Shown here one piece after another: positions 4,217 through 41,507 of a DNA stretch of 48,980 bases. The translations under genes and the position numbers were made by a program. The notes below the pieces were generated by a model. It was given only the letters and a program-made list of their open reading frames with translations. It was not told the DNA's origin and searched no databases. Origin of the DNA: a virus; IMG/VR virus record IMGVR_UViG_3300049827_000334, positions 1 through 48,980 of that record, one strand, 5' to 3'. Every line of letters begins with the position of its first letter. The first letter of the stretch is position 1.

Positions 4217-4560
4217 GGGAAGCAGCTGTGTGGAACCAGCTGCCATCACACTCAGAAGATCTAGGCCATGCTTCTCGGGGCAAGGCCCTGACCGCAATCT
4301 TCTCTGCGGGTAACGCCCCATGAAGATAAAGGGCTTTTGCATCCTACAGAAATGTTTTATATTTGGTCTGGTTCTGCAGACCACTCGTGGCCACGAGTCA
4401 AAGGAGTTACAGAGTGGAAGCTGTAACTCCTAACCAAGCGGAAGATCATGGGGAGTAAGGGCCGACCCTTACTTAAACTCTGTGCACAGAATCCCCACTC
4501 CGTATTCCCGAACGGGAAGATGGACCTGAGCACGTCCTTAAACTACTCATTAGTTTTTCT
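4217..4560 (+). ncRNA. Candidate structured RNA with many perfect hairpins
   Basis: This 344-nt stretch has no credible ORF. Perfect or near-perfect stems: 4222-4228/4237-4243; 4277-4281/4315-4319 enclosing 4292-4296/4305-4309; 4365-4370/4377-4382; the 16-nt palindrome 4383-4398; the 10-bp stem 4403-4412/4421-4430; 4449-4453/4493-4497 enclosing the 8-bp stem 4454-4461/4466-4473 and palindrome 4479-4490; 4505-4509/4514-4518; 4522-4525/4534-4537. The loop at 4297-4303 can pair with 4254-4260, giving a pseudoknot. GAAGAT occurs four times (4255, 4322, 4441, 4516). It ends in an AT-rich hairpin and T-run at 4540-4560. I know no named RNA class that fits. It could be a free ncRNA or the leader of the GP88 gene. 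Confidence 0.6.
4540..4560 (+). terminator. Weak intrinsic terminator at the end of the RNA candidate
   Basis: AAACTA (4540-4545) pairs with TAGTTT (4551-4556) around a CTCAT loop, and the T-run continues into TTCT. The stem is AT-rich, so termination may be partial, letting some transcription through to the GP88 gene at 4585. Confidence 0.4.
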
Positions 4561-4584: not shown

Positions 4585-5352
4585 ATGAAACTCCTCAAGT
4601 TTTCTACCGGCAACGGCAAGCTCAAGAACCGCCTGATCTTCAACATTCCAGCGGGCTACTCCTGCCCCCATGCTGGTGTTTGTAAGACCATGGCCGACCG
4701 TGTTACCGGCAAGATCATGGACTTGCCACAACGCTCTGGCACAGAAGCTGACGAGTACCGTTGCTTTGCTGCCATGGCAGAGACTCGTCCTACCGTGCGC
4801 GATGCTCGTTGGCATAACTGGGATCTATTGCGTGAGACCATCCACCTCAATGGCAATCAGACCACACTGCTCCGTGATCTGATCGATATGTCACTGTTGA
4901 TGCATCCTCCGAAGAAACTCATCCGCATCCATGAGTCAGGTGACTTCTGGACTGAGAACTACATGAAGGCTTGGATGATGGTGGCCCAGGAGCGTCCCAA
5001 CCAGAAGTTCTATGCCTACACCAAGTCCCTTGGTATGTGGATCAACTTGCGGGAACTCATCCCACCCAACTTCTATCTCACCGCTTCTTGCGGTGGGACA
5101 CTTGACTATCTCATCCCCAAGTATCCGCACGTGTTCCAGCGCATTGCTTACGTGGTCTACACAGAAGCTGAGGCGGCAGAACGCGGGCTTGAGATCGATC
5201 ATGACGACAGCCACTGCTTAGGTGACAAGCCCTTTGCACTGCTGGTACATGGCTCCCAGCGTGCTGGGTCTGATGCCATGAAAGCCATTACTCAACGTAA
5301 GAAGGAAGGTGGATTTGTGGGATACGGCAAATCAAAACAGAAGACAACCTAA
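4585..5352 (+). CDS. GP88-family phage protein
   Basis: The N-terminal segment has FSTGNGKLKN, FNIPAGYSCPHAGVC and, later, YRCFAAMAETRPTVRDARW, the pattern of the phage GP88 family (named from a mycobacteriophage gene; also common in cyanophages). Three or four Cys lie in the N-terminal third and could bind a metal or Fe-S cluster. A central segment reads IRIHESGDFWTENYMKAW, and LTASCGGT follows. Biochemical function is unknown to me. Length 255 aa is typical. The A/C-rich leader before the ATG (CAACGCAACTCAACACC) lacks a Shine-Dalgarno. The long RNA candidate upstream may regulate it. Confidence 0.75.
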   Translation: MKLLKFSTGNGKLKNRLIFNIPAGYSCPHAGVCKTMADRVTGKIMDLPQRSGTEADEYRCFAAMAETRPTVRDARWHNWDLLRETIHLNGNQTTLLRDLIDMSLLMHPPKKLIRIHESGDFWTENYMKAWMMVAQERPNQKFYAYTKSLGMWINLRELIPPNFYLTASCGGTLDYLIPKYPHVFQRIAYVVYTEAEAAERGLEIDHDDSHCLGDKPFALLVHGSQRAGSDAMKAITQRKKEGGFVGYGKSKQKTT

Positions 5353-7444: not shown

Positions 7445-7696
7445 ATGACAACCAAACGCAAGCCAACCCTCAAGCAACTATTCAAAGCCTGGCTTAAGCA
7501 TCGGCAGAAAAGCAATGAAGCATCAAGGTTGAAATGGGAACTTGATGATCTTGCTAACAAAACAAAACCAGGGACTGAGTTAATTGTCCACGAAGGTACT
7601 GTATATCGAATTACAACACGAAGTACTTTTAATGGACGTATTAATTACGAAGTTGAACGTATTGCTCAAGCTGAAGAGCTAGAAACAATTAAGTAG
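7445..7696 (+). CDS. Hypothetical basic protein (83 aa)
   Basis: Begins 5 nt after the polymerase stop. It has a Lys/Arg-rich helical N-terminus and a short beta segment (TVYRITTRSTFNGRINYEV). It could bind nucleic acid, judging only from charge. No family recognised. Confidence 0.65.
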   Translation: MTTKRKPTLKQLFKAWLKHRQKSNEASRLKWELDDLANKTKPGTELIVHEGTVYRITTRSTFNGRINYEVERIAQAEELETIK

Positions 7697-7702
7697 TTGT
7701 TT

Positions 7703-7755
7703 CCGTCCTTAGTATGACGTTAAACTGCTTTAACACCTACCGTCTGAATCAATGA
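7703..7755 (+). promoter_or_regulatory. Conserved hairpin leader, copy A (upstream of SSB)
   Basis: CCGTCC (7703-7708), stem TTAGTA (7709-7714), 11-nt loop TGACGTTAAAC (7715-7725), then TGCTTT. Only four of the six stem pairs form in this copy. An ATG at 7714 opens a 13-codon mini-ORF (MTLNCFNTYRLNQ) whose TGA (7753-7755) overlaps the SSB start as ATGA. The loop ends 26 nt before the SSB ATG, as in copy B. Confidence 0.7.
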
Positions 7756-8573
7756 ACTTTGCATCTGTCTGTGCTGTCCTCATGGAAGAACCCCGTGAGG
7801 TTTACACCAGTGAGACATCATTCAATCTCCGTGCATTAGTTAACTTGCCTCCGGTCAGCAACAAAGCACCAACTCCAATTGAACTCAATGTCTATGGAAA
7901 GTCCTGCGATAAATTCCGCACCTATAAAGCAGGAGCACGTCTGCACATTCACAGCGCCAAGCTACGTTTCGACGTTCAATCCAGAACGTATTCGTTGCAT
8001 GGAGGAATTGTGTATGAAGTTACTGAAAGTACGCCAATCCTTAACGACGTAATTCTTTCAGGTCGTTGCATCAAAGATATCGACGTATCAGATGAACGCG
8101 TGTTTCGCACGACAGCTGATGGTCTGATGATCTGTAATCAAACTTTGTCCGTTCCAATGGGCAAGAACAAGGCAGATCTTTTTAATTTCTTTGCGATCAA
8201 CTCAACTAAAGATCGTCTGAATAATGCAGAACTGATTGCTAACTACACACGCAAAGGCGTGGGTTTGACTATCCACGGCAAACTAGTGACTGATGCCTGG
8301 ACTGATAAGGCAACTAAGGAGCGCCGCACAGCTACTAAAATTCAAGTCACAAACTTGACGCTGCCTCCTAAGCCCAGTGAGAACGGTGCAGTTGAGTCTC
8401 AGGTGAAACCTGTGGCATCCACCACAAACAGTACAACGGCTGAGAATACCGTTAACCTATGGGCAACCACCAACACACAACCTGATCCCTGGAACCAGGC
8501 TTCGGGTGGTGGTCTGCCAGACCTGCCAGGTCAATACGGCTCGGCACCTGAACTTGAAGAACTTCCATTTTGA
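7752..8573 (+). CDS. Single-stranded DNA-binding protein with two OB folds
   Basis: Coats ssDNA during replication. Residues about 100-205 match a bacterial SSB OB fold: SGRCIKDIDV, a LFNFFAINST strand, ANYTRKGVGLTIHGKLVTDA, WTDKATKERRTATKIQV. Residues 1-95 look like a second, diverged OB fold (LRALVNLPP, IELNVYGKSC, AGARLHIHSAKLRF). The C-terminus is a long Asn/Thr/Pro/Gly linker ending in ELEELPF, the acidic partner-binding tip typical of SSB. Two OB folds in one chain is the arrangement of Deinococcus SSB and would form a dimer rather than tetramer. The conserved hairpin leader directly upstream suggests tight translational control. Confidence 0.85.
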   Translation: MNFASVCAVLMEEPREVYTSETSFNLRALVNLPPVSNKAPTPIELNVYGKSCDKFRTYKAGARLHIHSAKLRFDVQSRTYSLHGGIVYEVTESTPILNDVILSGRCIKDIDVSDERVFRTTADGLMICNQTLSVPMGKNKADLFNFFAINSTKDRLNNAELIANYTRKGVGLTIHGKLVTDAWTDKATKERRTATKIQVTNLTLPPKPSENGAVESQVKPVASTTNSTTAENTVNLWATTNTQPDPWNQASGGGLPDLPGQYGSAPELEELPF

Positions 8574-8576
8574 TTC

Positions 8577-8798
8577 ATGCCATTGAACATCAAACTAGAT
8601 AAAAGCGAAGACCTTACTTTGCTTGATGCTATTGCCTACGAATTTTTTATGGATCACATCAACGGATATGTTGATCCAACAGAAGAAGAGGTTGAAGTGC
8701 AAGTTGCAAAGCTTGCACTAGCTTCTTTTCACGTAGGTGAAATTTTTATCTTGGCTCGCGACAAGTACTATCAAAAAACTGATGACACCGACACATGA
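8577..8798 (+). CDS. Hypothetical acidic helical protein (73 aa)
   Basis: Starts 3 nt after the SSB stop. Acidic, helical, with EEEVEVQVAKLALASFH in the middle. No family recognised. Its end overlaps the next gene by 17 nt. Confidence 0.65.
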   Translation: MPLNIKLDKSEDLTLLDAIAYEFFMDHINGYVDPTEEEVEVQVAKLALASFHVGEIFILARDKYYQKTDDTDT

Positions 8799-9021
8799 TC
8801 AGTTCACTCTTCTTTATGAAGATGAACACACCAAAGTTCTACATGAATTCAAAGGCGTGATTGCCGATGATGTAGTCCAACACATTGTGGATTTCCTCAA
8901 GGGTTGCGGCTACATGGAAAGCAATGTCTTTGAAGCCATGAAAGAACTATCTGAGATGTATTTCGATTCATTACGTACCGAACAATACGTAATGAAATGG
9001 GATAAAGCTAAAGCAGAATGA
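8782..9021 (+). CDS. Hypothetical protein (79 aa)
   Basis: The frame is open from 8737, but the inner ATG at 8782 gives a 17-nt overlap with the upstream gene and a more natural start (MTPTHDQFTLLYEDEH). Acidic, mixed alpha/beta. No family recognised. Confidence 0.65.
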   Translation: MTPTHDQFTLLYEDEHTKVLHEFKGVIADDVVQHIVDFLKGCGYMESNVFEAMKELSEMYFDSLRTEQYVMKWDKAKAE

Positions 9022-9025
9022 TGAT

Positions 9026-9078
9026 CCGTCCTGAGCATGACGTTAAACTGCTCACCCTTGACTACGAAACAACCATGA
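9026..9078 (+). promoter_or_regulatory. Conserved hairpin leader, copy B (upstream of the 339-aa gene)
   Basis: CCGTCC (9026-9031), stem TGAGCA (9032-9037) perfectly paired with TGCTCA (9049-9054), and loop TGACGTTAAAC (9038-9048). The ATG at 9037 opens a 13-codon mini-ORF (MTLNCSPLTTKQP) whose TGA (9076-9078) overlaps the ATG at 9075. Its loop-to-start distance (26 nt) equals that of copy A. Confidence 0.75.
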
Positions 9079-10091
9079 CCTCTTCCATGACCACCAAGAA
9101 AACAGCTGCGCTTGCAACCCGTGGACTTGACTCTTTCCGGATGTTCCAGTCCAAAGAGTTTGTGTCTGGCTACCAGAATCTTGTAACAATTCAACCCCTA
9201 AACAAATCCAAAGTACGTGGTTGGTTTGTCCGAAAGTCTGATCTGGATACTTGCGGCTGGACTGCAACTGAAGATCAATTCACCAAAGGCTCTGTCATCT
9301 GGGATTACAAGCAGACCTTTGGCATGGCGCCCAATACTTCCATCGAGGAAGGCCTGAACTTCACTGAACCTCGCGTTCAGATCCTGTTGCGTTCTCCACT
9401 CATGGTGGAAGAAACCAGTGGGATGCGTCAGACGATTGGCACCTTTGAGGATCCCGATGTCAAAGCCATGTTTGACAACGATAAGGTAGCAGCTGACCTT
9501 GCCAACAGCAAAGGTGAGATGTACAAGCGCAAGTACAGCGTGCGTACCAAGTACCTTGTTTACATCTTGACTGAGGACAACAAGCGTGCCCACAAGATTC
9601 CAATGGTGCTGACCCTCAAAGGTCTGAACGGCACCGACGTATCGGACAAGGTCAAGCTGTACGAGAAGGAAATGTCTAAGTGCCTGAGCAAAGCACTGGA
9701 CTCCGAAGTGCCCCTGGCATTCAACGAGAAGTTCTATGCCACCACGGTGTTTGCTCCCGTGCTCGCCAATGAGATGCGTGGTGCCAACAACGTTGAGATC
9801 TGCGCTATCGAATCCTTCGAGATTCCTGCTTATAGCTCCCAGGATGATGCGGTTGAATCGCTGAATCGCCTGTCGATTCCTGATGAAGATCGTGAATCTA
9901 CCTGGAAGATGCAGGAGATGTTTGATGACTACATCAACCAGCACTCTCGTCAAGATGCCCAGCGCCTCAATGGTGCTTACGGAATCAAGGATGGTGTGCA
10001 GATCCTGCCCGTTTCTCGGACCACTGATGCCGTTGAAGTGAAGGCTCTGCCCTCGCGCAACGAACTCACTGGTGAAGACGAGTCACTCTGA
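9075..10091 (+). CDS. Conserved phage protein of unknown function (338 aa)
   Basis: Not recognised. It is a soluble alpha/beta protein with segments such as FVSGYQNLVTIQPLN, RGWFVRKSDLD and an acidic C-terminus (ELTGEDESL). Codon use is cleaner and more C-rich than in neighbours, suggesting high expression. The frame extends to 9018, but that would translate the conserved hairpin leader; the ATG at 9075 fits the leader-to-start spacing seen in the other two copies. Its place right after SSB, with the same leader, suggests a replication or recombination role; the acidic tail resembles that of single-strand-binding proteins. This is inference. Confidence 0.75.
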   Translation: MTSSMTTKKTAALATRGLDSFRMFQSKEFVSGYQNLVTIQPLNKSKVRGWFVRKSDLDTCGWTATEDQFTKGSVIWDYKQTFGMAPNTSIEEGLNFTEPRVQILLRSPLMVEETSGMRQTIGTFEDPDVKAMFDNDKVAADLANSKGEMYKRKYSVRTKYLVYILTEDNKRAHKIPMVLTLKGLNGTDVSDKVKLYEKEMSKCLSKALDSEVPLAFNEKFYATTVFAPVLANEMRGANNVEICAIESFEIPAYSSQDDAVESLNRLSIPDEDRESTWKMQEMFDDYINQHSRQDAQRLNGAYGIKDGVQILPVSRTTDAVEVKALPSRNELTGEDESL

Positions 10092-10346
10092 TCCAGGGAT
10101 CTGGGGGTTAGTTACATCACTTGGTTCAACTGCAACATTGTTGAAGATGAACATGTCTTGGACTAACCCCCTTATTACACCTTGACGATTAGTGGCGATC
10201 TGCGCAAGCAAGGTCGCCATTTCTTTTAAGGTACCAACTGAATCACAATCTTGTATGGATCGTTTGATTTTTTCCAGCCAAAACTTATCATCAAGTGTTG
10301 GTTCAATCTGGAACTGAGTTAACGGTACGTACTTGATTTCTTCCAT
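10083..10346 (-). CDS. Small hypothetical protein (87 aa), minus strand
   Basis: Starts MEEIKYVPLTQFQIEPTLDD and has a helical core with LLAQIATNRQGVIRGLV. The QIA-x-x-RQ-x-x-IRGL pattern looks like a conserved small phage protein I have seen in cyanophages but cannot name. It converges on the 338-aa gene with a 9-nt tail overlap, and is the only minus-strand gene in this block. Confidence 0.7.
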   Translation of the reverse strand: MEEIKYVPLTQFQIEPTLDDKFWLEKIKRSIQDCDSVGTLKEMATLLAQIATNRQGVIRGLVQDMFIFNNVAVEPSDVTNPQIPGSE

Positions 10347-10424
10347 GTGTATTTAGTTGTTACAAACATTTTACTTCTACAGTTAAGTTCAACAACACCT
10401 TTCCAAATGTATTAAGGATTACCA

Positions 10425-10628
10425 ATGAAACCCGAAGACAAAGCTGCACTCAAGGCTGGAGGCACTACGGCAGTTGTTGCTGGTGCCCTTGCCACATGCT
10501 TAGCAAATCCTGTAGCATGGGCTGCGGTCCTCTACGGTACGTATAGGATTGGCAAGGCAGCACGCGAGATTGTTCGTGAACGCTCCAAGGCAAAGACGGT
10601 CGATCAAGACTTCGACCTCTACATCTGA
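10425..10628 (+). CDS. Small protein with Ala/Gly-rich hydrophobic segment (67 aa)
   Basis: Residues 12-42 are hydrophobic and Ala/Gly-rich (GGTTAVVAGALATCLANPV then AWAAVLYGTY), consistent with one or two short membrane helices; the C-terminus is charged. Possibly a small membrane or holin-type protein, but there is no lysis context here. Confidence 0.6.
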   Translation: MKPEDKAALKAGGTTAVVAGALATCLANPVAWAAVLYGTYRIGKAAREIVRERSKAKTVDQDFDLYI

Positions 10629-10652
10629 TTCAAACTCAACCCAACTCAACTC

Positions 10653-11597
10653 ATGTCAACGCAACTCCTTCAGGAACTCAACGCAGCGCAGGCGTGCATC
10701 TATACGCGGACGAACATCCATCGTGCGTTCCAAGATTTTGATGACACTGAAATCGCCGGCATTTATCTGCGAGGCGACGATTGTCTTGTGGTGCGTCGCG
10801 ATGGTAGTGAGCAGGCTTACTCACGGCAGCTAATCAAAGCTGCATACTCCACCTACACTCATAGACTAAAAGATTTCTTTTCGTATCTTGGCCCCAATTA
10901 TCGTGGCCCTAGTGTATGGCATAACAATGCTTACATACTATTTAAGGGCTGGAACTACACACACGCACTCGGACACCTGACCTCGAATGCAAAACTCCAA
11001 GCACACTGGGCAGACAAATTCATACATGTATCAGACCCCGAAAAGATCAAGGCTCTCATTCAATCTGACCAAACGGACCTGGGCCATTTGGTTGCGCCTG
11101 ACGGACTTCGGCTTCCGAATCGGCCGCTTGATATGGACGGTGAACTGGATGATGTGCAAGAACAACGGTCCTCGTTTGGTGAACCTAGTTGTTCATGTGG
11201 GTCCTTTCAACGCCAGCTTTCAAATCTATCTGCTTTCCAAGAAGAGATCCAGGGATTCAAGCCCTGGTGCATCCATCTGACTTGGTTCAACAAGTACAGG
11301 GAACTACTTTGTAAACGCACTGATACCCGTAATGCCAGCCCCAGTGGTACACCTGAGAAGTGTGTAGCCTGGTGGTATGCACCTCCCTCTGATCACACCA
11401 GTGATGGTCGCTTTGTTTTGCTTCACACCAAATCTGGTGCTCAAGCTCCTCTGAGTCACTGGCGTACCTACAAACCACAAGAAGTGTTCACGCAGCACCA
11501 TGCATGGGATCTGTTCTTCAATATGATGGAGGCTGACTACACACCGTTCCCTGGCACATCACTACCACAACTTAAAGCCGCTGTCAAAAGACAATGA
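10653..11597 (+). CDS. Hypothetical protein (314 aa)
   Basis: Not recognised. The N-terminal 140 residues include IYLRGDDCLVVRRDGS and a LGPNYRGPSVWHNNAY stretch; the middle has a short Cys cluster (SCSCGSF); the C-terminal part is rich in Trp and His. The start has the CAACTCAAC-type leader without Shine-Dalgarno. It overlaps the next ORF by 4 nt. Confidence 0.7.
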   Translation: MSTQLLQELNAAQACIYTRTNIHRAFQDFDDTEIAGIYLRGDDCLVVRRDGSEQAYSRQLIKAAYSTYTHRLKDFFSYLGPNYRGPSVWHNNAYILFKGWNYTHALGHLTSNAKLQAHWADKFIHVSDPEKIKALIQSDQTDLGHLVAPDGLRLPNRPLDMDGELDDVQEQRSSFGEPSCSCGSFQRQLSNLSAFQEEIQGFKPWCIHLTWFNKYRELLCKRTDTRNASPSGTPEKCVAWWYAPPSDHTSDGRFVLLHTKSGAQAPLSHWRTYKPQEVFTQHHAWDLFFNMMEADYTPFPGTSLPQLKAAVKRQ

Positions 11598-11824
11598 TGG
11601 ATGATGAACTCCGTCAGTATGCACTGTCACTCGTTACAAAAGTATCTGAACAACCCATGATGTTATCCAACGGCAAATACTCTTTGCACCTTGAGGTTGA
11701 TGAAGACACCTACTGGGGTCTTGTTAAGCTAGGTGCAGAGATCAGAACTGATTGTGAAACCTATGCAGAAAATGTCCTCCTCGGTCTTGTTGAATCCGAA
11801 CTCGATAAACAAGCTGCAAATTGA
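11594..11824 (+). CDS. Hypothetical acidic protein (76 aa)
   Basis: Begins MMDDELRQYALSLVTKV; acidic and mostly helical. ATGA overlap with the upstream gene. No family recognised. Confidence 0.6.
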   Translation: MMDDELRQYALSLVTKVSEQPMMLSNGKYSLHLEVDEDTYWGLVKLGAEIRTDCETYAENVLLGLVESELDKQAAN

Positions 11825-11978
11825 ATGCATTGATGAAGAGGATGGTTCCATGACCATCCGTATTGATTGGGATGAAACAGATCCTGATCTCCAATGGTGG
11901 ACCGACTTGGGTCCAGAAGGTCAAGAAACCTTTATTATTGATGCACTCCGAGAAGCTTTGGATTGTTATGTCGATTGA
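11772..11978 (+). CDS. Hypothetical acidic protein (68 aa)
   Basis: The frame opens at 11733; the ATG at 11772 is a more likely start and still overlaps the previous gene by 53 nt. The core reads IECIDEEDGSMTIRIDWDET, a beta-hairpin-like acidic segment. No family recognised. Confidence 0.55.
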   Translation: MSSSVLLNPNSINKLQIECIDEEDGSMTIRIDWDETDPDLQWWTDLGPEGQETFIIDALREALDCYVD

Positions 11979-12363
11979 CACCTACGGTCTTCCCTCTGAA
12001 CAGTACCAAGAGTTTTTTGAAGACAACATCAGGTTTGCTGCCAAGTTATACAAACGGGCGCATGCAATCTTAGATGAAGAAGATCTTGGCTACTTGGAAT
12101 TAAAAGCAACCCATGAGTTGTTTACAGATGCTGTTTATGCAGCCAATGATGACTGTCGCCGGTACCAAAAGGCCAACAACCCAGAGGCACTCAAGGACAA
12201 TGACATCTTTGGTTTGACTCCCTCTAGAGAAGAACTGATGGAAGAAATTCAGTCCGTCAACGCCAAAGTTGAAGCACTGGTTGATTACATTGCTCGGCTG
12301 GTTGAGACCACAACAGATGGTCTTAACGGACTGGCTGAAGCCATGGACAACAAGCAGGATTGA
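11968..12363 (+). CDS. Hypothetical helical protein (131 aa)
   Basis: Real start is probably the ATG at 11968 (MSIDTYGLPSEQYQEFFEDN), 11 nt inside the previous gene, although the frame is open from 11863. The C-terminal 50 residues have heptad-like spacing (VNAKVEALVDYIARLVE), suggesting a short coiled coil. Function unknown. Confidence 0.65.
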   Translation: MSIDTYGLPSEQYQEFFEDNIRFAAKLYKRAHAILDEEDLGYLELKATHELFTDAVYAANDDCRRYQKANNPEALKDNDIFGLTPSREELMEEIQSVNAKVEALVDYIARLVETTTDGLNGLAEAMDNKQD

Positions 12364-12371
12364 TCTTAGTT

Positions 12372-12407
12372 ATGGCCATTACAATAACTAAAGATTGGTT
12401 TGCGTAA
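12372..12407 (+). other. Putative leader mini-ORF (11 codons)
   Basis: ATG at 12372 opens MAITITKDWFA, whose TAA (12405-12407) overlaps the ATG of the next gene as TAATG. Both start with ATGGCCATTA, so the mini-ORF start and the gene start are direct repeats. It could couple translation to the downstream gene, or be a duplicated start left by a small rearrangement. Confidence 0.35.
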
Positions 12408-12613
12408 TGGCCATTAAAAGTGTAAAGAAAAAGCTAGCTCTTCTTGCTGAGCGTTTCTTAATTCGCCTTAAAGTAACTTACCTTGTGTGGCGTATTAGCC
12501 TTAGCAAAAGTAAACCCACTCGTGTAAACCAAGCCTATCGTGTTTATTTAACCTTAGTTTGCGGTGACGCAGAGACCGTTAAGCAACCTTACATCAATCC
12601 ACGTTTGCATTAA
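12407..12613 (+). CDS. Small basic protein (68 aa)
   Basis: Begins MAIKSVKKKLALLAERFLIR; very basic, with a helical N-terminal half. Start at 12407 follows the TAATG junction with the mini-ORF. No family recognised; nucleic-acid binding is possible from charge alone. Confidence 0.55.
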   Translation: MAIKSVKKKLALLAERFLIRLKVTYLVWRISLSKSKPTRVNQAYRVYLTLVCGDAETVKQPYINPRLH

Positions 12614-12632
12614 AGCAAAAGTTGTGTAGCAT
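12605..12632 (+). promoter_or_regulatory. Possible promoter for the 2OG oxygenase gene
   Basis: TTGCAT (12605-12610) and TAGCAT (12627-12632) are 16 nt apart, 22 nt before the ATG at 12655. Match to consensus is moderate only. Confidence 0.3.
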
Positions 12633-12654
12633 GATTCTGTTTCTCAATTGATCC

Positions 12655-13290
12655 ATGGCATTCCAAAGCGTTTGGTACGAAACAGAACTACCAAGCGAAA
12701 TTGTAACTATCCTTGAAAAAACTCTTGAAGAAAAATACGATGAAGAACTGACGCAGTCAGTAGTTGAAGTAGGAGGCGGAGGTGTTGTTAACGAAAAAAT
12801 CCGCAAAGCAAAGAACGCATGGTTGCCTTCTACCCACTGGATTAGTGGTTTTGTCATGCACTTTGTTAACCTGGCAAACACTCAAAACTTTTGCTATGAC
12901 CTAACTGGATTGGATGGCCAGACCGCTCAGTACACTATTTATGACAAAGGCGAGTTTTACAACTGGCATTGCGACCAAGGTGTTTCAAGCTTTTATAAAC
13001 CTGAATCCAACCAGGTCCATGGCTATGACGACAAACTGTTGAAGGACAAACTCAGTACAGACAGCGAGTTGGTTCGTAAGCTTTCGTTCTCGCTCCAGCT
13101 GTCTAATGATGAGGACTACAAAGGTGGTGAGCTTCAAATCATGGATGAATCTGATGGCATCTATGAAGTACCAAAGAAGAAAGGACTCCTGGTCTGCTTT
13201 GATTCCAGGGCTCGTCACCGTGTAAACAAGATCACCTCTGGTCGCCGTAAGTCTTTAGTCGGCTGGGTCGTTGGACCTCGTTGGCGTTGA
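12655..13290 (+). CDS. 2OG-Fe(II) oxygenase (prolyl hydroxylase-like)
   Basis: Fe(II)/2-oxoglutarate dioxygenase of the double-stranded beta-helix fold. The iron ligands are His105-x-Asp107 (YNWHCDQG) and a distal His188 (RARHRVNKI), with Arg197 or Arg198 ten residues on for 2OG binding. LSFSLQLSNDEDYKGGEL is the strand pair typical of PiuC/P4H-type enzymes. Length 211 aa is normal. Such oxygenases are frequent in cyanophages, with substrates usually unknown; protein or nucleobase hydroxylation are both possible. Confidence 0.9.
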   Translation: MAFQSVWYETELPSEIVTILEKTLEEKYDEELTQSVVEVGGGGVVNEKIRKAKNAWLPSTHWISGFVMHFVNLANTQNFCYDLTGLDGQTAQYTIYDKGEFYNWHCDQGVSSFYKPESNQVHGYDDKLLKDKLSTDSELVRKLSFSLQLSNDEDYKGGELQIMDESDGIYEVPKKKGLLVCFDSRARHRVNKITSGRRKSLVGWVVGPRWR

Positions 13291-13331
13291 CATCTCTGGT
13301 AGACTGATTCCGCATAACCCCTGCAGGGCCG

Positions 13332-13360
13332 CCGTCCTGGTCATGACGTAAAACTGACCA
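13332..13360 (+). promoter_or_regulatory. Conserved hairpin leader, copy C
   Basis: CCGTCC (13332-13337), stem TGGTCA (13338-13343) paired with TGACCA (13355-13360), loop TGACGTAAAAC (13344-13354). The stem differs from copy B at two positions and both changes are compensated. Here the ATG at 13343 is followed after one codon by TAA, so the 13-codon mini-ORF of copies A and B is absent. The loop ends 25 nt before the ATG at 13380. A perfect -35 box (TTGACA, 13287-13292) lies upstream, without an obvious -10. Confidence 0.7.
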
Positions 13361-13379: not shown

Positions 13380-13493
13380 ATGTTCGAATCCTTGTTTGCC
13401 ACCGTAGTTCCGGTGTTAAAAGATCTTCTTTGGGCAGCAGCAGGCATGCTGCTGACCTATGTACTCAACAAATTCCAATCTCAATTCAACTAA
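13380..13493 (+). CDS. Small single-helix membrane protein (37 aa)
   Basis: Reads MFESLFATVVPVLKDLLWAA then AGMLLTYVLNKF and a short polar tail. A single hydrophobic helix, clean start and stop, and the conserved hairpin leader 25 nt upstream support a real gene. It could be a holin-like or membrane-remodelling peptide. It ends 3 nt before the Gp157-like gene. Confidence 0.65.
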   Translation: MFESLFATVVPVLKDLLWAAAGMLLTYVLNKFQSQFN

Positions 13494-35788: not shown

Positions 35789-36187
35789 CTATGCAGGCTG
35801 ATTAGGTACTTCTACCCAAGATTGAGTGGCTTCATCCCATTCGTAACTTTTACCGTCAGTAGGATAAGGAATCGGAGGATCCCATAACCCAGTGGTTGTA
35901 TTTAATAACCAAGAGGGATAAGGCTTGGGCGGAATAAAACCGTCAATTACGTTGTCGTAAGTGTAACCAAGGCCGGCATAATTCTTTCGAAACGCTTTAG
36001 ATTGGTCTGGGCCAGGGGTGTTGCTGTTAGGTAAATAATACACACCACCACGGGTGTTATAGCTGGTTTGTTTATAGGTTTGACCAGTGCGAGCGCTTAG
36101 CTCTGCTTCTTTACCGTCGTCTTCATCACGGCCAACGGTAACAAAAGTGACGATGTTGTTCTCGTCGAGAAGTGCGAAGTGTGCCAT
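35789..36187 (-). CDS. Conserved phage tail-region protein (132 aa)
   Basis: MAHFALLDENNIVTFVTVGR and FRKNYAGLGYTYDNVIDGFI with PPKPYPSWLLN and a closing YEWDEATQSWVEVP. This is a very common small protein in marine phages, usually located beside tail-fibre genes. No function known to me. Its ATG is adjacent to the Gly-rich gene stop. Confidence 0.8.
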   Translation of the reverse strand: MAHFALLDENNIVTFVTVGRDEDDGKEAELSARTGQTYKQTSYNTRGGVYYLPNSNTPGPDQSKAFRKNYAGLGYTYDNVIDGFIPPKPYPSWLLNTTTGLWDPPIPYPTDGKSYEWDEATQSWVEVPNQPA

Positions 36188-37932
36188 TAGGAGAATGTTA
36201 CGGTTTCAGAAGTAGTCGACGTTGCAGTAACAGTATAAATCTTAAATCCTGCTACGGCTGTAGATAAAGAACTTGTTACACCACCGGAAAAAGTAGCGTT
36301 ATTACTAGCTGGGATTTTAATAATAACCACACCAGAACCTCCTCCCGCTGAAGAAGCGCTGGGACCTGTGTCTCCCGCGCCTCCACCGCCACCACCCGTA
36401 TTAGCGGCTCCAGCTGTTACGCTTTGGCTGGAGGTGCCACCGTTACCGCCGCCACCGGTACCACCAGCGCCTCCAGTTGAGGTTCGGCAACCACCGCCAC
36501 CGCCGCCGGCGTAAGTAACACTTGTACCGGTAATTGTTGACGTAGCGCCACTACCGCCAGGACCTGCATTATTGCCACTGTTATTGGAACCAGCAGCACC
36601 GGCACCACCGCCGCCACCGCCTGCAATTCCACTGCTTTGGGAGTTACCGCCAGGATTTCCTTCTGATGGGCTGTATCCCCCAGCATTTCCAGAACCACCG
36701 TTTGTATTCTGGTAACCGCCACCGCCACCAGAGCCACCACTCGCTGCATTTGAACCACCTCGTCCACCTCGTCCACCACCTGTGGATGAAATCGAAGAAA
36801 ATACAGAGTTACTGCCAGATGTGTTGTTAGTTGGAGGTGTTCTTGGTGATCCAGCGCCTCCAGCACCAACTGTGACTGTATATGATGTTTTGTTTAATAA
36901 TGCTGAACCTGTGCGGTAACCACCTGCACCACCACCGCCGCCATCGTCAGCGCATCCACCGCCACCGCCTGCAACAACTAGATATTCAACGGAAACTAAA
37001 GTAGAACTATCTACAAAAGAAACTGTTTCGCTCGTTGTTGAAGTAGCTGTAACCGTATAGATATTAAAACCTGTTACAGCTGTGCTTAGGCTAGCGGTAA
37101 CTCCACCAGAAAAAACAGCTGCATAATTATTTGGGATTCTAATAATAACGACGCCGGAACCACCTGCACCACCGCTAAAGCTACTTCCGGTACTTCCAGC
37201 GCCACCGCCACCGCCGCCCGTGTTTGCCGTACCTGCTGTACCTGTTCCATTACGTGCACCAGCGCCACCGCCGCCAGAACCGCCAGAACCGCCTGAACCA
37301 CTTGGTGTATAGCCAGAGGCACCGCCACCGCCGCCGCCTGCGCGTGTTACAGAAGAACCTGTAATAGAAGAAGCAGTGCCGCTTCCTCCAGATCCACCGT
37401 TTTCAGAACTTCCGTCCGCAACACCATTAGCACCACTCGCACTCGCGCCACCGCCACCGCCTGATGCGTTTTGACCTCCCGTATTATCAGGATCAGCGTT
37501 ACCTCCGGGATTGCCTTGAGATGGACTTGTACTTGGTGTGTTACCTAACCCGCCAGGTGCGTTGTTTCTTCCGCCGCCGCCACCGCCAGAGCCACCAGCG
37601 ATACCGGGGCCATTACTGCTATTAGCACCGCCGCCACCGCCACCTGCTGAAGTAACAGTACTAAAAACAGAATTAGACCCAGAACCTCCGTTTCCGGTTG
37701 AACCTCCTGATCCAGCACTACCACCAGCGCCAACAGTTACTGTGTAAGGTACACCTGTTGAAAAAGGTACAGAACTAAATACTCTATACCCACCAGCGCC
37801 ACCGCCGCCGCCAGCATGTCCTCCAGCATCTCCACCGCCGCCGCCTCCCCCAGCAACAACTAGGTAATCAGCAGTTAATGGTAGTGCAACATCACCGCTT
37901 GATATTCCAAGCAACATCTGGATGAAGGACAT
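36187..37932 (-). CDS. Glycine-rich tail fibre/adhesin with internal duplication
   Basis: Two tandem units, each opening with YLVVAGGGGGG and closing with GVVIIRIPNNYAAVFSGGVT then a FNIYTVTATSTTSETV-type strand. The poly-Gly body (many GGGGG runs) resembles the polyglycine-II fold of phage receptor-binding tips. 581 aa; N-terminal 20 residues are non-repetitive. It may bind host surface glycans. Long Gly tracts are also recombination-prone, so gene length may vary. Confidence 0.8.
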   Translation of the reverse strand: MSFIQMLLGISSGDVALPLTADYLVVAGGGGGGGDAGGHAGGGGGAGGYRVFSSVPFSTGVPYTVTVGAGGSAGSGGSTGNGGSGSNSVFSTVTSAGGGGGGANSSNGPGIAGGSGGGGGGRNNAPGGLGNTPSTSPSQGNPGGNADPDNTGGQNASGGGGGASASGANGVADGSSENGGSGGSGTASSITGSSVTRAGGGGGGASGYTPSGSGGSGGSGGGGAGARNGTGTAGTANTGGGGGGAGSTGSSFSGGAGGSGVVIIRIPNNYAAVFSGGVTASLSTAVTGFNIYTVTATSTTSETVSFVDSSTLVSVEYLVVAGGGGGCADDGGGGGAGGYRTGSALLNKTSYTVTVGAGGAGSPRTPPTNNTSGSNSVFSSISSTGGGRGGRGGSNAASGGSGGGGGYQNTNGGSGNAGGYSPSEGNPGGNSQSSGIAGGGGGGAGAAGSNNSGNNAGPGGSGATSTITGTSVTYAGGGGGGCRTSTGGAGGTGGGGNGGTSSQSVTAGAANTGGGGGGAGDTGPSASSAGGGSGVVIIKIPASNNATFSGGVTSSLSTAVAGFKIYTVTATSTTSETVTFS

Positions 37933-37933
37933 A

Positions 37934-38770
37934 TCAGCTTAACCCTGCACCACCAATTACAAACTCAGTGCCTGCTGCACCTGAAACACATAATAACGTG
38001 GCCAAACCTCGCTGAGCAAGCGTCCGATTACCTACGCCAGACGTACCGGCTTGGCGAAGAGTAACGTTAGTACCTTGAGTGATTGTAATATTTCCAGTGG
38101 TGTTGTTATAGATGCTTACTGCTTGACCAACAACAAATACACCAGAAGGCACTGTTACGCCAGCTGTAGTAAAAATGTGGTCCCCAGCATCTGCTGCAGT
38201 GAGTGTATAGGAAGTTGTTTGTACAACTTGTGGAACATCACGAACATTGCCAGCTGCATCTCTAACTGTGCTACCTGAAACAGTACCTGTAAAACCACCA
38301 CTTGCAAAGTTAGCCGCAGTACCAGTAACGGTTGTTCCGGTGATTGTTGTAAAACCTGCTGTATTACCAGTTAACGTTCCAAACCGGCCAGCGGTGCCAG
38401 TGACAGTTGCTCCTGTGATTGTTGTAAAACCTGCAGTACCGCCAGTAATAGTTTCAAATTGACCAGCTGTACCTGTGACGGTTGCCCCTGTAACAGTACC
38501 AAAACCAGCAGCAGTACCGGTTAAATTTGTAAAGCGACCTGTATTTCCACTAACCGTTGCACCACTGAGTGTTGTGGTAAAAATACCTGTAACAGCGGTA
38601 ATAGTAGTGAAATTACCTACGTTACCAGTGATTGTTGCGCCAGAAATTGTGCCGGTTGTTGAAATGTTTGTAAATCCGGCGCCTGCAGCTAATCCGCTAA
38701 CTGTCGTAGTTGCATCAACGCCAGCTGACGTGTAGGTAATATTATCAACTTTTAGGGTTCCGTAAGGCAT
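37934..38770 (-). CDS. Repeat-containing tail fibre (278 aa)
   Basis: Starts MPYGTLKVDNITYTSAGVD and continues with repeats of the type GFTTITGATVTGTAGQF (about 20 residues each) up to residue ~190; the C-terminal ~90 residues are a different, globular domain (YTLTAADAGDHIFTTAGVTV and following). Probably a beta-helix fibre. Repeats are shared with the 897-aa fibre next to it, so the genes could recombine. Confidence 0.85.
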   Translation of the reverse strand: MPYGTLKVDNITYTSAGVDATTTVSGLAAGAGFTNISTTGTISGATITGNVGNFTTITAVTGIFTTTLSGATVSGNTGRFTNLTGTAAGFGTVTGATVTGTAGQFETITGGTAGFTTITGATVTGTAGRFGTLTGNTAGFTTITGTTVTGTAANFASGGFTGTVSGSTVRDAAGNVRDVPQVVQTTSYTLTAADAGDHIFTTAGVTVPSGVFVVGQAVSIYNNTTGNITITQGTNVTLRQAGTSGVGNRTLAQRGLATLLCVSGAAGTEFVIGGAGLS

Positions 38771-41400
38771 TACCGTGTCCCTTTGTATTCTTAATACCTA
38801 GTTTAATTCAATTCTACACAAGGATGGCCCAGCGCGAACCATCTGGTACATCAACCGTAAATCCAGTTTGAATTTCTACCGGACCTTGGCTTAACCCATT
38901 AAATCCATTGCTGATTCCAAAGTTAACATCAATCACAATCTTGCTTTGCATAATTGTGGTGATGCCGCCACCGCCTCCGCCACTCTGAGCAACCCAAGAA
39001 GTAGTGCCGTTTCCATTTGTTTGAAGAACAAATCCATTTGTACCAACGGTTGTCGGAAAAGAAAACAGACCCCTGGGGCGTACATCACCAGAGCCAGTAA
39101 CAAATGTTGTACCGCCTGCAACAAATGTCGAGCCTGATACGGTTACAAATACACCAGTCGTTGCCTGAACCGTATTACCAGTAACTGTTGCACCGGAGAC
39201 TTGCGTTGTAAAGATTCCGTTTACCCCGGTGATTTGAGTAACGTTTGCCGTCTGTCCAGTAATAGAAGAACCGGAAAGAGTAACAAAGTTAGCCGTAGTA
39301 CCAGTGACAGTTTCTCCTGTAATAGCAGTGAAACCTGCAGTATTCCCTGTTAACGTCCCAAACTGACCGGCGGTGCCAGTAATAGTTGCACCACTTAACA
39401 CAGTAGTGAATACACCACTGATACCCGTGATATTGCTTCCTAAAACCGTATTACCAGTAACTGTGGCCCCAGAAAGATTGCTGGTGAATACACCTGAGAT
39501 TCCGGTAATATTGCTAAATTGGCCCGCATTACCTGTTACAACTGCACCAGAAATTTGAGTTGTGAATACACCATTAACACCAGTTATTGCAGTTGCTTGT
39601 ACTGCATTACCTGTGATTAAGGTTCCAGAAATTTGCGTGGTATAAACACCACTTACAAAGTTAGCGGTTGTACCAGTAACAGTGGTGCCTGTGATACTGG
39701 TCGTAAAATTACCCGCAACAAAGTTGGCGGTTGTACCTGTTACAGTTGCTCCAGTGACAGTGGTAAATCCAGCTGTCCCTCCTGTTAATACGGTGAATTG
39801 AGCTACGTTTCCAGTGACCGTAGCACCTGAAATTTGAGAGGTGAAGACGCCAGAGACGCCAGTGATACTGGTTGCCTGAAGCGTTGTTCCTGTAATTGTG
39901 GTACCGCTTAAAGTTCCGGTAACTTGAACGCCAGAACTGAAATAACCAGATCCTTCAACTCGTAAATTACCGGAAACAACCAGATCTCCGGTAACAGTAT
40001 GAGATGCTGCAACAAGAGTACCAAAAATACCGCTGGTAAAACGCGCAATTCCACCGGTAACTGTTTGGCCGGAAACCTGGGTCGTAAAGACACCGCTAAC
40101 AAAGTTGGCAGTTGTACCAGTGACGGTTGTGCCTGTAACGGTTGTAAAACCAGCTGTGTTTCCGGTAACGGTGCCAAAGAACCCATTGTTGCCCTGGATA
40201 GAAGTACCAGAGACTGTGGTCGTACCGATAACCGTACCACCCGTGATAACGCTTCCTTCAAGACTTAGGAACCGACCGTATTCACCAGTGATATTTAAAC
40301 CAGAAACTTGCGTGGTAAATACGCCACTAATAAAGTTAGCAACGGAGCCAGTGAGGGTTGTACCTGTGAGGGTTGTGAAGCCACCACCTGCACCGGTAAT
40401 AGTAATGCCACTGACACGACCGGTGACATTAATACCGGAGCTAAAGAAACCAGAACCACGGACAATTAAATCACTATTAACGGTTGCATTACCAGTAACC
40501 GTAATATTTTCTCGGACAATACCGGTGGTAAAAAATGCAGTAATTGCATTGAGTGTTGTGAAGTTACCAGTAGTTCCGGTGACGGTTTGACCGGTAATCG
40601 TTGTGAAACCTGCAGTACCGCCAGTAATAGTTGTAAATTGACCCGCATTACCAGTGACGGTTGCACCAGAAACCTGGGTCGTACCAATAATATTGACCCC
40701 AGTTACGTTTGTGAACTGGGCATTAGTACCAGTAATGGTCGTACCGCTAACCGTACCAGTAATCTGAACGCCAGAGCTAAAGAAGCCAGAACCACGAACG
40801 ATGAGGTCACCACTAACAGTTGAGTTACCGGTGATGGTGTGAGAACCAGCGTTCAGGACCTGGAAGTTACCCGTCGTGAAGTTAGCTGTCGTGCCAGTGA
40901 CTGTGGCTCCAGACAGTAACGTCGTATAAATACCAGTGATGCCGGTTGCAGTACCAAAGGCACCGAAGTCACCAGTGACCGTACCGCCTTTGAGGTAATT
41001 ACTAAATACACCGGAGACTGCGGCTAGGTTACCAAAGTTGCCTGTATTGCCGGTAACAGTAGCGCCAGAAACAATAGTAGTAAAAGTACCGGACACACCC
41101 GTCAGGGTGGTCACAGAAAAACTATTGGTAGTTAATGTATTTGCTGTAACGTTTGTTGCGTTGAGATTGGTACCTGTAATGGTGGTACCACTGAACGTCC
41201 CAGTAACGTTTGTTGTACCAGAGACGTAGAGGATTCCAACGTTTGTTGTATTACTGACGTTCAGACCAGAGATTGTGGCTTGATCTTGAACTGTTAGGTT
41301 GTCTTCAATTAAAACAGAACCGCTAACGGTACCACCAGTGCGTGGCAGGTAGTAAACGTTAAGGTATGCCTTGGTTCCAGATATTGTTAACTTCTTATTT
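38100..41400 (-). repeat. DNA/protein repeat tract in the two fibre genes
   Basis: The translated units of ~20-25 residues (ACCGGTACTGT-like codons) recur dozens of times through the 278-aa and 897-aa fibre genes. Such tracts favour recombination between units and between the two genes, a way to change receptor range. Confidence 0.8.
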
Positions 41401-41507
41401 TTAATCGCAGGGTCAACTTCACCGACATCCACTACTGTCAGCAGATCTCCATCCGCTAACTGGATGCCGGCAAGTTCTTGTAGCTCGGATATACGCCTGT
41501 TGGCCAC
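38814..41507 (-). CDS. Long repetitive tail fibre (897 aa)
   Basis: N-terminal attachment-like region (RISELQELAGIQLADGDLLT) then about 700 residues of TVTGTTANF / TTITGGTAGF-type units, with three longer repeats built on NLRVEGSGYFSSGVQVTGT and similar. C-terminal ~60 residues differ (IQTGFTVDVPDGSRWAILV). Probably trimeric beta-helix fibre that recognises the host. GTG start at 41507; a TATAAT box lies at 41538-41543 (minus strand). Confidence 0.85.
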   Translation of the reverse strand: MANRRISELQELAGIQLADGDLLTVVDVGEVDPAIKNKKLTISGTKAYLNVYYLPRTGGTVSGSVLIEDNLTVQDQATISGLNVSNTTNVGILYVSGTTNVTGTFSGTTITGTNLNATNVTANTLTTNSFSVTTLTGVSGTFTTIVSGATVTGNTGNFGNLAAVSGVFSNYLKGGTVTGDFGAFGTATGITGIYTTLLSGATVTGTTANFTTGNFQVLNAGSHTITGNSTVSGDLIVRGSGFFSSGVQITGTVSGTTITGTNAQFTNVTGVNIIGTTQVSGATVTGNAGQFTTITGGTAGFTTITGQTVTGTTGNFTTLNAITAFFTTGIVRENITVTGNATVNSDLIVRGSGFFSSGINVTGRVSGITITGAGGGFTTLTGTTLTGSVANFISGVFTTQVSGLNITGEYGRFLSLEGSVITGGTVIGTTTVSGTSIQGNNGFFGTVTGNTAGFTTVTGTTVTGTTANFVSGVFTTQVSGQTVTGGIARFTSGIFGTLVAASHTVTGDLVVSGNLRVEGSGYFSSGVQVTGTLSGTTITGTTLQATSITGVSGVFTSQISGATVTGNVAQFTVLTGGTAGFTTVTGATVTGTTANFVAGNFTTSITGTTVTGTTANFVSGVYTTQISGTLITGNAVQATAITGVNGVFTTQISGAVVTGNAGQFSNITGISGVFTSNLSGATVTGNTVLGSNITGISGVFTTVLSGATITGTAGQFGTLTGNTAGFTAITGETVTGTTANFVTLSGSSITGQTANVTQITGVNGIFTTQVSGATVTGNTVQATTGVFVTVSGSTFVAGGTTFVTGSGDVRPRGLFSFPTTVGTNGFVLQTNGNGTTSWVAQSGGGGGGITTIMQSKIVIDVNFGISNGFNGLSQGPVEIQTGFTVDVPDGSRWAILV

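Follow-up and report, generated by a model that had tools for sequence, protein, structure and literature searches.

A 48,980-nucleotide (nt) stretch of viral DNA, IMG/VR record IMGVR_UViG_3300049827_000334 (the window, by which the whole stretch is always meant), carries four copies of an element that is, with near certainty, a 28-nt H-type RNA pseudoknot. Its consensus is NNNC-C-URRNYA-U-GNNN-NWAAAC-URNYYA: stem 1 comprises 4 base pairs (bp) that vary almost freely apart from an invariant C-G pair at the junction, loop 1 consists of one C, the helices are separated by one U, stem 2 has 6 bp (U-A/G, R-Y, R-Y, N-N, Y-R and A-U) and loop 3 is NWAAAC. The most conserved positions gather at the helix junction. 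From the places in which copies are found, we tentatively suggest that the element acts as an end-defining, nuclease-blocking punctuation mark at the boundaries of phage RNAs.

The pseudoknot and its covariation

The initial annotation had described a hairpin, flanked by a constant CCGTCC and enclosing a constant loop, in three copies starting at positions 7703, 9026 and 13332. The coordinates were right, as the pattern CCGTCCTNNNNATGACGTWAAACTG matched the window at three places without mismatch, compared with 0.01 matches expected by chance. The distances to the next ATG given for these copies (26, 26 and 25 nt for copies A, B and C) were also correct, as was the comparison of their stems, with two compensated pair changes between copies B and C and four of six pairs retained in copy A. 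However, a fourth copy had been overlooked. This copy 0 was found by a descriptor scan at 4522-4549, and its outer stem, GGAC/GTCC, is wholly different from that of the other three yet complementary, and is present in many relatives at the same place. A covariance model identified four copies in the window with E-values from 2.4e-11 to 2.8e-6, compared with 0.46 for the best non-copy. The proposal of a cis-acting structure held, but not that of a hairpin with constant flank and loop, because the CGTC of the flank pairs with the GACG of the loop to give an H-type pseudoknot.

All four copies are on the + strand. Copy 0 (4522..4549; model E-value 2.8e-6) reads GGAC C TGAGCA C GTCC TTAAAC TACTCA and is followed after 35 nt by the ATG at 4585. 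Copy A (7704..7731; 8.5e-9) has CGTC/GACG as stem 1, C as loop 1 and TTAAAC as loop 3, and its stem 2, TTAGTA/TGCTTT, forms 4 of 6 pairs. Copy B (9027..9054; 2.4e-11) forms 10 of 10 pairs, with stem 1 at 9027-9030/9039-9042, the loop 1 C at 9031, stem 2 at 9032-9037/9049-9054, the U of loop 2 at 9038 and loop 3 at 9043-9048. Copy C (13333..13360; 3.6e-10) likewise forms 10 of 10 pairs, with TGGTCA/TGACCA as stem 2, and lies 19 nt before the ATG at 13380.

The fold was evaluated in 80 relatives that were fetched and kept by homology to the DUF5895 protein encoded after copy B, without use of the motif in their selection. Most of them carry the element at the same places, and it was found that the supposedly constant 5′ bases and the "loop" vary jointly (CGTC..GACG, TGTC..GACA). 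At these protein-fetched sites at least 5 of the 6 stem 2 pairs were present in 80 of 85 sequences, compared with about 48 when the arms were shuffled, and many of the pairs were G-U. A generic descriptor yielded 487 unique copies with additional stem 1 types such as GGAC/GTCC; it gave 405 + strand matches in about 4.2 Mb, compared with 2 in 8.4 Mb of simulated sequence. Because the descriptor searches had complementarity built in, the viral collection was also scanned with both stem 1 arms as N. Among the matches listed in two such scans, at least 3 of the 4 stem 1 pairs were present in 148/148 and 38/38 unique contexts, and stem 1 was perfect in 112 of the 148 and 30 of the 38, compared with 7.9 and 9.8 when partners were shuffled; the 148-context set contained at least 28 distinct perfect stem 1 helices.

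In a quantitative comparison of 70 sequences, 96.6% of cells were paired (77.8% after shuffling), the covariation value was 0.487 (0.131 after shuffling), and there were 142 double changes (47 after shuffling), a number reached in none of 500 shuffles. Structures slid along the same sequences as a control had 25-37% paired cells and covariation of 0.02-0.09. Simulated sequence and partner shuffles served as controls; reversed sequence was unsuitable, since reversal of both strands retains the pairing. The helices are thus interleaved in the order a-b-a′-b′ with covariation on both, which is what defines an H-type pseudoknot. A simple hairpin is ruled out by covariation of the outer stem, and an intrinsic terminator or single-helix leader by covariation of the second helix together with the lack of a consistent T-run after the copies. 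Sequence varies almost freely in the two stems and is constant only at the junction and in the loops, the pattern that selection for the fold itself would be expected to leave.

The same data bear on a signal at the DNA level, such as a repeat-binding site or the phage promoter that the initial annotation had offered as an alternative. The near-identical copies dispersed upstream of genes would fit such a signal, as would one Staphylococcus copy whose annotation includes a BPROM promoter. However, 28 different stem 1 sequences occur with pairing kept in the interleaved stems, G-U pairs are common, the strand bias of the copies follows transcription, and the hosts and their polymerases are unrelated. 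A DNA-level signal is therefore very improbable, and a phage promoter in particular is contradicted by the free variation of both stems under retained pairing, the G-U pairs and the strand bias.

Copies at stop codons, start regions and tRNAs

The position of the element relative to the upstream gene is sharply defined. In 128 upstream-gene clusters the gap between stop codon and pseudoknot was 5 nt in 27, 6 nt in 13 and shorter than 5 nt in 3; counted over independent context clusters, a gap of 5-6 nt was modal (24 of 80), with almost none closer. This spacing matches that of recoding pseudoknots. It would suit a ribosome-level insulator, in which the pseudoknot stands at the messenger RNA (mRNA) entrance when a stop codon is in the A site and either halts sliding after termination or separates the translation of neighboring genes, and the near absence of closer copies points the same way. 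Such an insulator is nonetheless unlikely, because no upstream ribosome exists for copies between transfer RNA (tRNA) genes or after terminators, and the 5-nt limit may only reflect a fold that escapes unfolding by terminating ribosomes. A recoding signal for stop readthrough or frameshifting after the upstream gene, which a pseudoknot 5-8 nt after a stop codon might also suggest, is the least probable explanation considered: reading on in frame beyond the upstream stop adds few codons (median 14), which by itself makes recoding unlikely, there is no consistent slippery site or stop type, tandem stops occur as in copy B, and there are the tRNA contexts described below.

On the downstream side, the gap between pseudoknot and ATG is 18-23 nt in nearly all cyanophage cases, whereas in phages of Firmicutes the pseudoknot lies about 55-65 nt before a capsid-scaffold gene, which is followed by the major capsid gene. 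Some Firmicutes copies are directly 3′ of an intrinsic terminator. Several of the Firmicutes scaffold leaders (L440-L442, L447 and L454) have in common a TTATGCA stretch downstream of the pseudoknot, with a short hairpin in several, and continue to a Shine-Dalgarno sequence and the scaffold gene, so that they form a longer conserved capsid-operon leader. In two Heliusvirales gut phages (L455 and L456, from position 1201), the pseudoknot is immediately followed by about 100 nt of non-coding sequence that looks structured and is the same in both.

A tRNA gene follows 34 of 684 copies, compared with 6 of 684 random positions, and in 27 of the 34 it begins within 2-7 nt. In the T4-like cyanophage S-CRM01 the order is tRNA-Ser, pseudoknot, tRNA-Met, pseudoknot, tRNA-Leu, with gaps of 2-4 nt, and a further copy lies 3 nt after tRNA-Tyr. 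The tRNA-Ser just before the first of these pseudoknots (S-CRM01 about 149328-149413; L618 about 429-514) was predicted by ARAGORN and is absent from the annotation of the record. In crAss phage cr7_1 a sequence resembling a degenerate tRNA, which ARAGORN missed, follows the pseudoknot (L450 about 1230-1310), and its sister phage cr124_1 has two tRNA-Val genes at that place. The tRNA-pseudoknot-tRNA order and the 2-4-nt gaps would be explained by a folding insulator or processing guide, which prevents joint misfolding of neighboring RNAs such as tRNAs and start regions or guides tRNA end processing without blocking an exonuclease. This too is unlikely, as any stable hairpin should suffice for such a task and the conserved loop core (C, AAAC) would be left unexplained.

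A few copies lie between convergent genes (contigs L216, L218 and L234 of the KatG type, as well as L212, L264/L315, L282 and L360). In six IMG/VR contigs (L216, L218, L234, L308, L320 and L332), whose viral or host origin is unclear, a gene for a catalase-peroxidase (KatG-like) is followed by a pseudoknot, and a convergent gene ends a few nt farther on. Pseudoknots also occur in tandem, 14-80 nt from each other, sometimes with unlike stem 1 helices adjoining (L450 1156-1225, L477 7404-7509, L358, L359 and L563).

These contexts limit what the element can be in the window, where the initial annotation had it gate the gene for the single-strand DNA-binding protein (SSB) and two other genes. The cis-acting element stands, but that role is too narrow, given that copies also lie between neighboring tRNAs, precede a tRNA by 2-7 nt or, in a few cases, stand at convergent gene ends. 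A translational operator of the T4 gene 32 type would have SSB bind the pseudoknot, spread over the unstructured start region and repress SSB and other genes. Copy A precedes the SSB gene, S-CRM01 has a degenerate copy 27 nt before gp32, the layout of pseudoknot, unstructured stretch of about 20 nt and AUG is as would be expected, and there is precedent in T4 and RB69. Most copies, however, are not at SSB genes, and those before or between tRNAs, before capsid scaffolds or at convergent ends cannot serve in this way. We consider the operator unlikely as a general explanation, and an operator for SSB only was rejected as too narrow for the tRNA and capsid contexts.

A ligand-sensing mini-pseudoknot is less probable again. 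Pseudoknot riboswitches such as preQ1 bind their ligand at the helix junction, and conservation here is highest at the junction, so that the invariant set of C-G pair, single C, U, AAAC and A-U pair might bind a small molecule or nucleobase. However, no alternative expression platform is visible, the contexts, tRNAs among them, are functionally unrelated, and a triple-stranded pseudoknot would need the same conserved loops.

The window genes and the mini-ORF

Copy 0 precedes a gene for a Gp88-like protein (4585..5352, +; phrog_1392). Copy A lies 7 nt after the stop codon of one gene (7445..7696, +) and before the SSB gene (7752..8573, +; phrog_44, Pfam SSB), and copy B lies 5 nt after the stop codon of a phrog_935 gene (8737..9021, +) and before the DUF5895 gene (9075..10091, +). 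Copy C follows the stop codon of a 2OG-Fe(II) oxygenase gene (12655..13290, +) by 42 nt and precedes an open reading frame (ORF) of 37 amino acids (13380..13493, +), for which a family search gave no match. Synechococcus phage S-EIV1 is the only named phage that the DUF5895 and SSB proteins match (81% and 57% identity, respectively), and the window therefore belongs to an S-EIV1-like freshwater cyanophage.

The initial annotation had further described ORFs of exactly 13 codons in copies A (7714..7755, +) and B (9037..9078, +), each ending as ATGA on the downstream start, and an ORF in copy C that reads M-T-stop. All three are present as described, but the proposal that this coupled mini-ORF is a functional part could not be upheld, since it is not conserved across relatives. 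Its ATG is made up of three junction bases, the stem 2 A, the inter-helix U and the stem 1 G. In the relatives this junction ATG was present at 44 of the 52 SSB and 21 of the 28 DUF5895 sites, with AAG or ACG in some, and the 13-codon ATGA overlap in 20 of 52 and 16 of 28, respectively; at the third site, equivalent to copy C, the mini-ORF is mostly 2-4 codons long. We judge the mini-ORF to be a by-product of the conserved structure and the conserved gap of about 20 nt.

Three other features of the window were noted. A hairpin-like repeat, TTCCCGAACGGGAA, lies at 4490-4521 directly before copy 0 and is found at the same place in relatives. An inverted repeat, GGGGGTTAGT...ACTAACCCCC, occupies 10100-10175 between the DUF5895 gene and a minus-strand ORF (10083-10346). 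Long glycine-rich and repeated tracts at 36371-41341 fall in two large minus-strand ORFs (36187-37932 and 38814-41507), which probably encode tail-fiber-like proteins.

Distribution and proposed role

The suggestion of a cis RNA element outside any named class was borne out by the abundant pair-preserving changes in relatives, the G-U pairs and the Rfam 15 covariance models, which gave no relevant match at E <= 1 for the window and six diverse loci. No description of the pseudoknot element was found in the literature within mainly open-access papers. A covariance-model search, of the kind that the initial annotation had proposed for related phages, did find further copies: 4-7 per genome in the S-EIV1-like genomes tested (7 in S-EIV1 itself) and 7 in S-CRM01, while two other contigs had 8-9.

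Among named phages, copies occur in Staphylococcus phietaviruses, Streptococcus Javan271/383, Lactobacillus phiEF-1.1 and phig1e, Moorella MTATph1, Mycobacterium Labelle, Arthrobacter Molivia, Corynebacterium phi673, deep-sea D6E, Paracoccus ParMal1, Roseophage SIO1, Nostoc NMeng1, a Vibrio phage set and crAss-like phages, among others. In a few of these the copies match only if stem 1 is allowed to be shorter or loop 3 longer. Matches in phiEcoM-GJ1 were judged doubtful because of a poor stem 1. A single strict pattern had only nine matches in 257 Gb of genomes of bacteria and archaea; at least two of the nine stand in a clear phage context (L205/L206, with a scaffold-type leader, and L208, which is cyanophage-like), and E. 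coli genomes gave no match to the one stem 1 variant searched. The element thus looks essentially phage-borne in this sample of hosts. It is possible, though we hold it with some reserve, that the copies form a previously undescribed phage-wide RNA family, in which a minimal pseudoknot serves as universal punctuation that blocks nucleases at mRNA and tRNA borders, its spread among phages of cyanobacteria, Firmicutes, Actinobacteria, Proteobacteria and Bacteroidetes being due to transfer or convergence.

The element sits at the borders of RNA units, with a stop codon, tRNA or intrinsic terminator close upstream and a start region or tRNA close downstream. No translation-based role fits all cases, because the contexts of stop and ATG, tRNA and tRNA, terminator and scaffold, and convergent ends share only such a border. 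The use of mRNA and tRNA boundaries alike can be accounted for only by a role at the RNA level that is independent of translation. The reading that we prefer, and to which we would give slightly less than an even chance, is that of an end-defining, nuclease-blocking punctuation element. The fold and not its sequence would matter, with the element serving as a compact roadblock that punctuates polycistronic phage RNA. A cut would be made in the short single strand beside the pseudoknot, the pseudoknot would then shield the newly made end from exonucleases (in the main the 5′ end of the mRNA or tRNA that follows, at times the 3′ end of the one that precedes), and the two flanking RNA units would be kept independent. 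Additional use by SSB is possible where the downstream gene is ssb. There is precedent in the leader of T4 gene 32: RNase E cleaves at -71, about 4 nt before a pseudoknot that starts at -67, the RNA upstream of the cut is degraded, and the mRNA that remains is the most stable one of T4 (PMC3014915).

Several points weigh against the punctuation role. The copies at convergent ends have no downstream RNA needing a 5′ cap, and the Firmicutes copies after an intrinsic terminator have no upstream end in need of protection, so a single directional role fails in some cases. In 31 + 38 of 152 context clusters no downstream gene was assigned, on the basis of crude ORF calls. The hosts are diverse and therefore implicate no single nuclease; a block specific to RNase J, at which the hosts hinted, was weakened by a Vibrio phage copy (TCTC/GAGA) and the crAss-like copies.

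Phages of at least five bacterial phyla carry this 28-nt fold, with its invariant loop core and with a position among stop codons, start regions and tRNAs that is set to the nucleotide. Should it define and protect RNA ends, it would represent a general, overlooked layer of phage gene expression, would give the long-isolated T4 gene 32 pseudoknot a wider setting and would supply a very small portable part for RNA stability or insulation. The covariance model and consensus make the element testable at once in cultured phages.

Comparison with known systems

The T4 gene 32 pseudoknot is possibly the only viral pseudoknot in translational autoregulation, according to a 2010 review (PMC3014915). 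As taken from the records, the leader folds as TGCC-A-GCTATGA-GGTA-AAGTG-TCATAGC in T4 and as ATACC-A-GCTACGA-GGTAT-AAGTG-TCGTAGC in RB69. These leaders resemble the element in being H-type, with a one-nt loop 1, a stem 1 of 4-5 bp, a stem 2 of 6-7 bp and a short purine-containing loop 3, and in having an unstructured stretch before the AUG; they lie upstream of an SSB gene, as do some copies of the element. In contrast to the element, the T4 leader has A rather than C as loop 1, no U between the helices in the best fold and no NWAAAC loop 3, and as far as the review (PMC3014915) says it is neither repeated nor found at tRNAs. The covariance model did not find the gene 32 site in T4. The position upstream of SSB applies to one of the four window copies and to the degenerate copy of S-CRM01, but not to most copies. 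Because the core differs and the model misses T4 and RB69, the element may at most work like the gene 32 leader and is not a member of the same family.

Frameshift pseudoknots of the luteovirus type, such as that of beet western yellows virus, are very compact H-type folds with a single inter-helix U, a loop 1 C and an A-rich loop 3 that ends in C. The phage element shares all of these features and differs in having no coding overlap, no slippery site, a longer stem 2 and a place in phage DNA genomes. The exoribonuclease-resistant RNAs known from flaviviruses and plant viruses are alike in the role proposed, that of a folded RNA which halts a 5′-to-3′ nuclease and defines an RNA end; the phage fold is not ring-like, and its nuclease block is a proposal only. 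Intercistronic stabilizers of the repetitive extragenic palindromic type and the RNase III sites of T7 define ends and set the stability of operon parts by means of hairpins or long duplexes. The phage element is likewise intercistronic but consists of a short pseudoknot whose core is conserved.

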